Shown here in pieces: positions 22,220 to 32,984 of a stretch of DNA of 56,970 bases (the stretch's first letter is position 1; every line of letters starts with the position of its first letter). This DNA comes from Alphaproteobacteria bacterium. GTDB lineage: Bacteria; Pseudomonadota; Alphaproteobacteria; Rs-D84. Under the pieces are notes generated by a model. It had not been told where the DNA came from, did not search any database, and was given only the letters and a program-made list of their open reading frames with translations. The position numbers and the translations under genes were made by a program. The stretch lies in assembly GCA_017629245.1 (NCBI GenBank), contig JAGBXO010000007.1:78100-135069 (forward strand), written 5' to 3'.

Positions 22220-22242
22220 CCCGCCGTTCGGCGGGATTTTTT
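22220..22242. terminator. Bidirectional intrinsic terminator
   Basis: CCCGCC (22220-22225) / GGCGGG (22230-22235), GTTC tetraloop, T run on plus and A run upstream. It serves the barrel gene and the converging minus gene. Confidence 0.85.
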
Positions 22243-23080
22243 AATCAACCAAATGATAAACCGTGCCATTATAATTAAAGTTGATGGTACCGGTGGCCTT
22301 GCCGGCTTCTAACTTGCCATAGCATTTTCCGTCATTATACCCAACCACCAACGACGGCTCTGTATATTTTTCCGCATACAACGAAAAAGACAACCCGGTT
22401 GAGGTTTTAAAATAACTTATCCCCAGTTCACACGGCACTTCGTCCAAAATAATTTCAGACAAAAAAAGCAAAGGTAATAAAAGTTCCTCTTCTTCCTCAT
22501 CCGCAAAAAGAGCAGTTTCTAGATCATCCCAACAACGTTCATCTGCATCTGCTGGATTCTGATAGCAATTATACGATGAAAAATCAGCAAATAAATGATC
22601 ACACGCCCGCCTCCCCCCATAAATATCAATCCAGCTACACTTTCCTTCATGCAGCGACGCAGGCTCCATAACATATTTACCAACATACGGATAAACCATA
22701 CGACAATAAATACACACCCCATCTTCCAACCAGTTTAGTTCTCCATTTCGTAGTGCAGACTCAAACGCCTGCTCTTCCTCTGATGAAAGCACCTCTATTG
22801 ATTCATACTGTTTTCCATACTCACCCACCATATAAGACAATACCCCCTCCATAACAACCCATTGATTACACCCCAACGAAGGGATATAGCAATAATTTCC
22901 ACCATCATATATCGGTTCAACATAATCCGACCCATCACATGTCGGAATTGATTTATCGGGAAATTTATAACAATGCTCAACCTCGCCATAACCTTCCAGC
23001 ACCGGCACAGACTTTGCATCGGACAACGGAACAATCACACAAAGAAAACACAAACAAAACCTTCTCAACCCCAACCCCAC
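22241..23080 (-). CDS. Secreted Cys-rich protein with C-terminal GTIN..VYHL domain
   Basis: About 279 residues. The exact start is unclear: GTG at 23080 or TTG at 23068 both give a signal peptide (RRFCLCFLCVIVPLSDA); a longer frame to 23134 would cross a terminator hairpin. The mature protein has about 14 Cys and acidic stretches (SSEEEQAFE, DEEEEELL). Its C-terminus carries PS-x2-V-x-YND-x2-CY-x5-G-x-A-[TS]-GTIN-x2-Y-x3-VYHL, shared with the protein at 26521-26916. No known family is recognised. It sits directly downstream of a long structured RNA (23085-23340), which may be its leader. Confidence 0.65.
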   Translation of the reverse strand: MGLGLRRFCLCFLCVIVPLSDAKSVPVLEGYGEVEHCYKFPDKSIPTCDGSDYVEPIYDGGNYCYIPSLGCNQWVVMEGVLSYMVGEYGKQYESIEVLSSEEEQAFESALRNGELNWLEDGVCIYCRMVYPYVGKYVMEPASLHEGKCSWIDIYGGRRACDHLFADFSSYNCYQNPADADERCWDDLETALFADEEEEELLLPLLFLSEIILDEVPCELGISYFKTSTGLSFSLYAEKYTEPSLVVGYNDGKCYGKLEAGKATGTINFNYNGTVYHLVD

Positions 23081-23084
23081 AATA

Positions 23085-23340
23085 AAAAAATAACCGCCAC
23101 GGGAATATGGCGGTCGGGGTGTTAGAAAAATCATATACAGACATGACCCCGTCGGCCTTTGGGGTTACCCCCTGTTTTATAGCCGACGGCACCCCGAGCC
23201 AGAAAGCGGTAACGGCCGGGTTGTACATAAAAAAAGACGCATCCGCGTCAATTTTTATGCGGATACCAATGCAACAAAACATTGCACAGTCTGTATACGG
23301 GCTTTTCTAAGGCCCCGAACCCACATCCCTGTGGATTCAC
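23085..23340 (-). ncRNA. Candidate structured RNA or leader with long-range stem
   Basis: Predicted start near 23340 from a strong promoter. The RNA opens with hairpin CCACA/TGTGG (23321-23334) and a second GGGC/GCCC hairpin (23299-23316). A long-range stem can join the two ends: CGGGG with CCCCG, TTAGAAAA with TTTTCTAA, and an 11-bp pair of CGTATACAGAC with GTCTGTATATG (arms about 23287-23317 and 23116-23144). Inside are GACGC/GCGTC followed by seven T (23229-23249, an early terminator) and CCGTCGGC/GCCGACGG. The end is a CCGCCA/TGGCGG hairpin followed by T-rich sequence (23085-23115). No known RNA family is recognised. Confidence 0.55.
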
Positions 23341-26520: not shown

Positions 26521-26916
26521 TTATTCCAGATGATAAACCCCATCACCATATTTTACATTAATCGTCCCACTGGCGCGTCCCAACACCATATCGGCATAGC
26601 ACACCGTATCATTATACCGCACACAAAACGATGGTGTGGTGACACGATTTGAATACAACGGCACAACCACACCGCTGTTTGTCTTAATCTGGCTCACCCC
26701 CGCACCGCACAGCGCGCGCATTTGTTTAAGCAACCAGCACACACTGGTTGATGTATCTGAACACACATCCGCAACATCATGTGCAACATACCCCGCGGGG
26801 CACACCCCGGCGTCCGCCGCCACATAATTGTCATATTCCACCGCAACCATCCCCGTCGGGCAAGATTGCGCAAACGCAACAAATGGCAACAAAAAGACAA
26901 AATACAACCACCTCAT
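26521..26916 (-). CDS. Secreted Cys-rich protein with C-terminal GTIN..VYHL domain
   Basis: 131 residues. The ATG at 26916 shares its A with the stop of the upstream gene (TGATG), so it is translationally coupled. Signal peptide MRWLYFVFLLPFVAFA. The mature part has Cys pairs (SCPTG, VCPAGY, DVCSD) and ends with the same domain as the 22241-23080 protein (PS-x2-V-x-YND...GTIN...VYHL). It may be the minimal form of that domain. Probably periplasmic or surface-exposed; function unknown. Confidence 0.7.
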   Translation of the reverse strand: MRWLYFVFLLPFVAFAQSCPTGMVAVEYDNYVAADAGVCPAGYVAHDVADVCSDTSTSVCWLLKQMRALCGAGVSQIKTNSGVVVPLYSNRVTTPSFCVRYNDTVCYADMVLGRASGTINVKYGDGVYHLE

Positions 26917-27368
26917 CAATCCGCACCACCATAACTTTGCGAAGAACAACCAACAGTGTCAACACACTCGGTCAAAGCACATTTTATTTTAAAACTATTC
27001 ATACACAAATCAGCAATATCCACATATTGATATGCGCTAACAACACAAGAAGCCAAATTCAACGACACAATATGCATATAAGGTGCGGCAAAAGGGCTAA
27101 CCATATAACACGCAACAAAAAGATAACTACGATATATAGCATTTACACTATCTACAGGCACCGACGATGGCACTACAGTGGTGTTACCATACCAAAACAA
27201 CGCCACACCAGACACATCAACACCACAACAATTCACCACATATTGACTTCCAGATGTAGAAACTGGCGTACAACTCTCACATGTACTTAAATCTGGCACA
27301 CACATGGTTGCGGCATGCGACGCCCCAACACAAGTCAACAAACACAACAAACAAAATATCTTTTTCAT
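26916..27368 (-). CDS. Secreted Cys-rich orphan behind an attenuator-like leader
   Basis: 150 residues from the ATG at 27368, right after GGTGGGGG. Signal peptide MKKIFCLLCLLTCVGASHA. The mature part has about eleven Cys, including CESC and CC, and ends in a short polar tail. It is the first gene of a three-gene secreted set (this, 26521-26916 and the small 26371-26517 peptide). Expression is likely controlled by the RNA element immediately upstream. No family is recognised. Confidence 0.65.
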   Translation of the reverse strand: MKKIFCLLCLLTCVGASHAATMCVPDLSTCESCTPVSTSGSQYVVNCCGVDVSGVALFWYGNTTVVPSSVPVDSVNAIYRSYLFVACYMVSPFAAPYMHIVSLNLASCVVSAYQYVDIADLCMNSFKIKCALTECVDTVGCSSQSYGGAD

Positions 27369-27569
27369 TTCCCCCACCATAAACAAAACCCGCCCAAAAC
27401 AATTCAAGGCGGTTGGAGGTTCGTTACAACTTTCAGGAAATTGTTCGCTTTATTCAACATATTCAAGCGACCTCCAACCCATTTTGGTTGGAGATTTATG
27501 TCCACATCCACATGATGCGAACACCTGAAAATAGGGTAACGACACCCCATTGTGGCAACCCGCCACAAC
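27369..27569 (-). promoter_or_regulatory. Attenuator-like structured leader RNA
   Basis: From a start near 27569 the RNA opens with hairpin TGTGGC/GCCACA (27551-27567) and a second hairpin GGGG/CCC (27534-27548). Then three complementary segments follow: C (27486-27493), B (27470-27479) and A (27411-27420). B is the exact reverse complement of A (10 bases) and of C (8 bases). If C pairs with B, A is free and a CCGCC/GGCGG terminator-like hairpin with a T-rich tail (27381-27412) can form; if B pairs with A, that hairpin is blocked. This is the logic of transcription attenuation. The ATG is only 13 bases beyond the T tract. Confidence 0.65.
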
Positions 27570-27575
27570 ATTGCA

Positions 27576-27604
27576 ATTATACAACATAAAAAAGAATTAT
27601 ACAA
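27576..27604 (-). promoter_or_regulatory. Promoter of the attenuator-like leader
   Basis: Minus strand TTGTAT (27599-27604), 17 bases, TATAAT (27576-27581). Confidence 0.7.
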
Positions 27605-32865: not shown

Positions 32866-32984
32866 AAAACCGCATTGATAAATCAAAAGCGGTTGGAGGT
32901 TCGAAACTAGAAGAGATATGCCCGAATATAATCGGACACCAACTTCACGGGTTTCCACCCCCAATCGTGACAACACATCACGAC
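32866..32984 (-). ncRNA. Candidate structured small RNA or leader (second copy of the motif)
   Basis: Starts near 32984 with hairpin TCGTGA/TCACGA (32965-32983), then a GGGGG/CCC hairpin (32949-32962), a CCGA/TCGG hairpin, and ends in AACCGC/GCGGTT (32868-32873 and 32889-32894) with an inner TTGAT/ATCAA and a T-rich tail. The 15 bases at 32889-32903 are identical to 27409-27423 in the other leader. About 120 bases long. Confidence 0.6.

Follow-up and report, generated by a model that had tools for sequence, protein, structure and literature searches.

A conserved family of multicopy RNAs with a putative attenuator architecture in Alphaproteobacteria of the order Rs-D84

The closest described counterparts of the RNA considered here are the Bartonella regulatory transcripts (Brt RNAs), which are about 200 nt long, occur in 2-34 copies per genome (PMC5387305), are highly transcribed as separate short RNAs, and have been described as exclusive to Bartonella, with a riboswitch-like nature put forward as a hypothesis (PMC5387305, PMC8070961). 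A small XRE-type HTH gene, trp, lies directly downstream of them (PMC5387305, PMC8070961), and the Brt RNA is abundant while this downstream gene is nearly silent (PMC5387305). For Brt1, premature and read-through transcripts were both reported, deletion of the brt1 3' stem-loop raised trp1 transcription, and a gfp reporter downstream of brt1 gave increasing signal with decreasing heme (PMC8070961). Alphaproteobacteria also carry Cuckoo-type sRNAs, which are multicopy, are described as trans-acting, and present an anti-Shine-Dalgarno (SD) motif CCUCCUCCC in hairpin loops.

The window, a stretch of 56,970 nucleotides from an alphaproteobacterial contig (JAGBXO010000007.1), carries a leader that belongs to a real, conserved and hitherto uncatalogued RNA family. 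Direct reading of the minus strand from 27604 to 27369 yields a promoter, a strongly folded leader, three segments C, B and A, a terminator and an SD sequence, followed by an ATG; all features of the leader given below lie on this strand. The promoter, TTGTAT-N17-TATAAT (27604-27576), comprises a -35-like hexamer TTGTAT (27599-27604), a weak match to TTGACA, and a -10 box TATAAT (27576-27581) that starts 33 nt ahead of the RNA core. The 5' hairpin P1, TTGTGGC-loop-GCCACAA (27550-27568), coincides with the transcription start predicted from the position of the -10 box. It is followed by the hairpin P2, GGGG..ACCC (27534-27548; 93% paired over 75 copies), whose loop TCGTTA (27542-27537) supplies the 5' strand for a pseudoknot PK1 supported by covariation over the same copies, by the 5' strand of a second pseudoknot PK2, TTTCAGG (27524-27530), and by a variable hairpin region P4 (27499-27523) that is well defined in relatives and loose in the window copy. 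Segment C, CTCCAACC (27486-27493), is the rival of A for B. Segment B, GGTTGGAGG (27471-27479), extends with position 27470 to GGTTGGAGGT (27479-27470), the exact complement of A over 10 nt (27420-27411) and of C over 8 nt (27493-27486). Next come the hairpin P6, TCGCTT-GAATATGTTGAATA-AAGCGA (27445-27470), with a strongly conserved loop GAATAnnTTGAATA that forms invariant alignment columns, the hairpin P7, CAAT/GTTG (27427-27443), which holds the PK2 3' strand CCTGAAA (27437-27431) in its loop, and the PK1 3' strand TAACGA (27421-27426), one nucleotide ahead of A. In segment A, CCTCCAACC (27411-27419), AACC doubles as the start of the terminator stem and CCTCC can face the SD sequence. The intrinsic terminator (27381-27414) is built from AACCGCC (27414-27408) and GGCGGGTT (27394-27387), followed by TTTTGTTT to 27381; the SD sequence GGGGG is at 27371-27375 and the start codon at 27368-27366.

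A preliminary description, made from sequence alone, had already recognised the complementarity of B to both A and C, the promoter, and the overlap of A with a terminator-like stem. All three held, the promoter as a sequence and the overlap in the window and in most other copies, and one detail needed correction: the T-tract ends 12 nt, not 13, before the ATG. PK1, PK2, the conserved P6 loop, the abundance of the family and a second copy in the window had been overlooked. The leader folds at -84.2 kcal/mol (z = -5.2 relative to shuffles). An exact 8-mer triplet, defined as B being complementary to one upstream and one downstream site, arose in 112 of 20,000 first-order shuffles of the window leader (0.56%), so that the triple complementarity of this leader, taken singly, is only moderately unusual.

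The first gene behind the leader (26916-27368, minus strand) encodes a secreted Cys-rich protein of 150 aa (MKKIFCLLCLL...) for which a Pfam search gave no match. The second gene (26521-26937, minus strand, start approximate) encodes a secreted-type protein, MRWLYFVFLLPFVAFAQSCPTG..., and, since the two reading frames overlap, the genes are inferred to be co-transcribed as a putative operon. This second protein shares a C-terminal motif, G.A.GTIN..Y...VYHL, with another secreted protein encoded at 22241-23134 (minus strand), suggesting a paralogous exported family. An internally deleted second copy of the RNA (32891-32963, minus strand; 21.6 bits, E 0.013) lies ahead of a 698-aa ORF (32759-30663). 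It retains P2, PK1 and A and, because C, B and P6 are absent, is predicted to be locked in the terminated state. Members of this ORF family (MPYDVKRFIF.../MPLEARKFIF...) follow RNA copies at a greater distance, the spacer measuring about 133 nt, both in the window (32963-32891, minus strand) and at G000 C1:43803, C1:250 and C6:135508; several of these loci are at contig ends, where the repeats probably broke the assembly.

A blastn search of the window leader against 98 relatives gave many matches per genome within one genus, identified from named records as Candidatus Enterousia and kin, which has been placed in the order Rs-D84 (PMC12306168). With a covariance model built from an alignment of 75 copies (A1), 8 strong copies and 1 weaker one were found in the window's own genome, and copies were present in 54 of the 59 Ca. 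Enterousia genomes, the richest of them holding 53, the per-genome counts in the genus being lower bounds. Across the order, the model detected the RNA in 177 of 201 genomes and 19 of 23 genera. Beyond the order it was rare, with 4 genomes in a sample of the class, and in a sample of the phylum the matches were confined to the genus itself. The only window matches to Rfam 15 (4227 families) at gathering thresholds were tRNAs, none of them at the leader; permissive searching over the leader, at E values up to 10, gave nothing credible, and ARAGORN found no tRNA or tmRNA there. Two candidate members from elsewhere, a pattern hit in Omnitrophota and an IMG/VR contig (L285), lacked a model match and were dismissed as chance.

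The layout of the window leader recurs across 195 unique copies. A perfect TATAAT is present in 51% of them (6% in a random control), its start lying mostly 33 or 34 nt upstream of the core; a terminator occurs in 178 (91%, against 14% of random positions), and 3-4 nt of A fall within its stem in 140 of these 178; and the ATG of an SD-preceded ORF lies 40-59 nt past A in 62%, compared with 0.9% in the control. About a quarter of the copies have no recognised SD-start ORF downstream. Among 131 distinct downstream proteins, scored by a simple heuristic, 63% look exported (control 26%) and 41% contain at least 4% Cys (control 9%). Pfam searches of the downstream proteins mostly yielded nothing, and otherwise OMP barrels, Listeria-Bacteroides repeats, Cys-rich repeats and a glycosyltransferase. 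A second downstream class consists of small XRE-type HTH proteins of about 60-120 aa (HTH_31, HTH_3, HTH_19); the window copy itself is not followed by such a gene. The arrangement of promoter, terminator and SD sequence and the gene contexts are thereby shown, and the context first proposed, a secreted Cys-rich operon, proves too narrow, other copies preceding small HTH regulators and other genes. In another alphaproteobacterial family (G289; L265, L273, L274) the RNA precedes prepilin-like genes (MIKKKVNTELGRSMVEMLGTLAIMGVLTIGG...).

Strong support for the structure comes from the 75 aligned copies. PK1 is 97% paired with changes on both sides at 6 of 6 pairs, P4 83.5% paired with double changes at 4 of 4 pairs, and P6 90% paired with double changes at 5 of 5 stem pairs; P7 and PK2 are 88% and 80% paired, and the alternative helices C:B and B:A 95.6% and 99.9%. 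No shuffle or slid register matched the observed covariation score, and mutual information flags PK1 (columns 7-12 with 162-168), P7, PK2 and P6, as well as a B:A pair (110-170) and a lone pair (5-140). The latter (window positions 27544 and 27444; UA in 35 and CG in 27 of the 75 copies) joins the loop of P2 to the junction between P6 and P7 and is likely to be a tertiary contact. The copies were picked by anchors that included B and A, and the invariance of these strands is thus partly an effect of that choice, which does not explain the compensatory changes. The P6 loop GAATAnnTTGAATA hardly varies; where it opens up in certain copies, an additional helix forms between GAATA/AAATA and AATA. 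A leader peptide was rejected as an explanation, given that the P6 stem letters change by compensation, so that no codon series is kept.

Most of the roughly 200 copies show the triple complementarity again, accompanied by compensatory changes, and it is this conservation that decides the case. C/B/A triplets vary as a whole, CTCCAACC/GGTTGGAGG/CCTCCAACC being replaced by CTCCTGAT/GGTCAGGAGG/CCTCCTGACC, and this joint change indicates that both C:B and B:A are selected. Among 109 distinct model-found copies, B and A co-vary in at least six ways (GGTTGGAGG/CCTCCAACC, GGTCAGGAGG/CCTCCTGACC, GGCTGGAGG/CCTCCAGCC, GGCAGGAGG/CCTCCTGCC, TGTTGGAGG/TCTCCAACA and GGTTGGAGT/ACTCCAACC); C tracks the change in the CTCCTG class and also changes along in copies such as ATCCAGTC/GGCTGGAGG/ACTCCAGCC. 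In other families of the class the strands differ (GGCGAGAGG/CCTCTCGCC, GACTGGAAG/CTTCCAGTC) yet remain complementary. C tolerates more variation at its ends than A and B do, and in some copies the C:B helix is merely short. The elements and their coevolution are, on these data, shown.

We consider it likely that the RNA is a cis-acting attenuator, kept OFF by default through C:B and turned ON when B pairs with A; which way it switches is inferred. Transcription would begin at P1, and the 5' part would form P2, P4 and a local C:B hairpin. After synthesis of the 3' part, the pseudoknots PK1 and PK2 would clamp both ends, with C:B persisting and A free, and the last nucleotides of A would complete the terminator stem, halting the polymerase before the ATG. 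A signal that disturbs C:B or favours B:A would cause B to take up A, whereupon the terminator would be lost and the gene read. Free A may additionally block translation, since its CCUCC is complementary to the SD sequence. The signal could be a small molecule, a physical cue or a protein, for example one of the small HTH proteins whose genes follow sister copies. The sequence of these steps, the state taken as default and the very existence of a signal are inferred, as there are no transcript or termination data for this organism.

Of 188 copies folded without pseudoknots, 167 had C:B and 19 had B:A in the minimum free energy structure, and forcing B:A cost about 8.7 kcal/mol; moreover, PK1 and PK2 nest with C:B and cross B:A. 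This preference, together with the compatibility of the pseudoknots with C:B nesting only, suggests that termination is the default and B:A rare or induced, which would agree, by analogy, with abundant Brt RNA and a silent trp gene. There are counterpoints: B:A removes 3-4 pairs of the terminator stem, so that residual hairpins may survive in some copies; the copies without a recognised SD-start ORF downstream, and array copies directly followed by another copy, fit a free-standing RNA better; and the looser constraint on C and the want of a clear U-tract in the Brt plasmid copies also count against the model. The preliminary description had proposed that C:B pairing permits and B:A pairing prevents termination, to be judged against homologous leaders, and this comparison came out supportive: all three segments persist in the homologues and change jointly. 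Because of this, and because A overlaps the terminator and the leader abuts the SD sequence and ATG, the attenuator remains the best-supported model, although without transcript or termination data and with its default state inferred.

Terminator and antiterminator share a strand, A, as is required of an attenuator, and a conserved aptamer-like structure is combined with an expression platform, as in a riboswitch, ligand binding being no more than a possibility. The family resembles transcription-attenuating riboswitches in its three mutually exclusive strands, the last of which overlaps the terminator, and in the aptamer-like conserved double pseudoknot upstream; it differs in having no known ligand, no Rfam match, an unusual copy number and diverse downstream genes.

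The comparison with Brt RNAs covers five Bartonella plasmid copies, one on the B. grahamii plasmid pBGR3, and no chromosomal ones. The best match of a covariance model, R1, on the 28-kb pBGR3 fell exactly at the Brt and was weak (E 0.1); the other four Brt copies gave no hit at E 0.1. A blastn search with the pBGR3 Brt matched Bartonella plasmids only and 0 of 385 genomes of the class, own genome included, and Bartonella chromosomes were not matched in the class-wide sample. The pBGR3 Brt nevertheless has P1, a P2 with an 8-nt loop of which the last six nucleotides form PK1, a PK2 between linker and P7 loop, and complementary C, B (TTCCGGGAG) and A (CTCCCGGAA), with A adjoining PK1. All five Brt copies have PK1 of 6-7 bp and PK2 of 6-8 bp, with covarying partners. 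An architecture descriptor, whose tolerances were set after seeing one Brt, matched pBGR3 only at the Brt and the window only at the leader, produced 12 false positives across 24.1 Mb of shuffled sequence, and recovered half of the Enterousia copies and 2 of 5 Brts. The two RNAs thus share P1, a P2 whose 8-nt loop contributes its six or seven 3'-most nucleotides to PK1, PK2 with the P7 loop, the triple complementarity of C, B and A, a gap of 1-2 nt separating A from PK1, and a small XRE-type HTH gene downstream, as in one of the two main Enterousia-side classes. They have almost no sequence identity; P6 of the Brts lacks the GAATAnnTTGAATA motif, the plasmid copies have no clear U-tract, and the Ca. 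Enterousia regulon also includes secreted and surface proteins. Common descent appears likely, and is unproven because sequence homology is not detectable.

Other readings of these data deserve consideration. The copies could be independent genes for trans-acting sRNAs in which the exposed CCUCC of A pairs with the SD sequences of targets. Each copy has its own promoter and terminator, tandem arrays occur without ORFs between copies, A resembles an anti-SD sequence, and Brt1 has also been proposed to act in trans (PMC5387305). Cuckoo-type sRNAs are likewise multicopy, alphaproteobacterial and endowed with a CCUCC motif; in our family the motif pairs with B in cis and overlaps the terminator, and there is no Rfam hit. 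Against the trans-acting reading, which we regard as unlikely, are the nearly fixed SD-preceded ATG at 40-59 nt after A (62% against 0.9% expected) and two features that a free sRNA does not need, the within-copy covariation of A with B and C and the overlap of A with the terminator. It is more conceivable that the switch is translational, free A masking the SD sequence and B freeing it, with the terminator secondary. The type of A matches that of the SD sequence, CAGGAG occurring in 13 of 18 CTCCTG leaders against 3 of 97 CTCCAA leaders; A pairs with its own SD region at -9.2 kcal/mol and with swapped ones at -8.6; and in Brt, A (CTCCC) faces GGGGGG. This remains possible, but 91% of copies have a classical terminator, situated between A and the SD sequence, and paralogy, mostly inside one genome, confounds the correlation of A with the SD sequence.

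There may also be no switch at all, B:A belonging to the final pseudoknotted fold and C:B being a folding intermediate of a structural or ribozyme-like element or an insulator. The higher conservation of B:A than of C:B in A1, the short C in some copies and the possible stacking of PK1 on B:A favour this; the CTCCTG class and copies of the ATCCAGTC/GGCTGGAGG/ACTCCAGCC type, where all three strands change jointly, speak against it, and the nucleotides common to A and the terminator argue for alternative states, so that we hold it improbable. Least probable of all is a selfish or mobile DNA repeat with copies landing before genes by chance: the copy number is high and ranges from 0 to 53 among close relatives, copies lie near contig ends, and some occur in IMG/VR prophage-type contigs, but covariation of RNA pairs, including pseudoknots, and fixed distances to promoter and ATG speak strongly against it.

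This attenuator-type RNA class is broader than previously known and its architecture is not confined to Bartonella, regulation itself being inferred. A structural definition is now available for Brt RNAs, and covariation predicts which strands compete, which renders the attenuation model testable by compensatory mutation. Up to 50 copies in genomes of about 1 Mb would constitute an exceptionally dense class of cis-regulatory RNAs, and the family offers a possible handle on surface control in uncultured gut bacteria. A bolder reading, for which the evidence does not quite tip the balance, is that a single class of sensing RNA, a three-strand terminator switch found order-wide and sharing its architecture with Bartonella, puts as many as about 50 genes in a 1-Mb genome, for surface proteins and small HTH regulators, under one signal. 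If true, this would amount to RNA-based, regulon-wide control of the cell surface in gut Alphaproteobacteria with reduced genomes.

Several copies are arranged head to tail, each with its own promoter and terminator, as in an array of four (G049 C2:122-885). Another four-copy array (L017, G023:C24), likewise with a promoter and terminator for each copy, includes a subtype with GTCGGYGAATATATTGAATAAGCCGGGATA. At three loci (L073, L122, L123) tandem copies without the 5' half, and hence without P2 and C, lie directly behind a promoter and keep B, P6, P7, A and the terminator; these natural deletion variants are predicted to favour B:A. Three IMG/VR contigs classed as viral (L286, L287, L288) carry full copies of the RNA alongside phage-type ORFs, and one of these copies sits before an ABC-transporter-like ORF.
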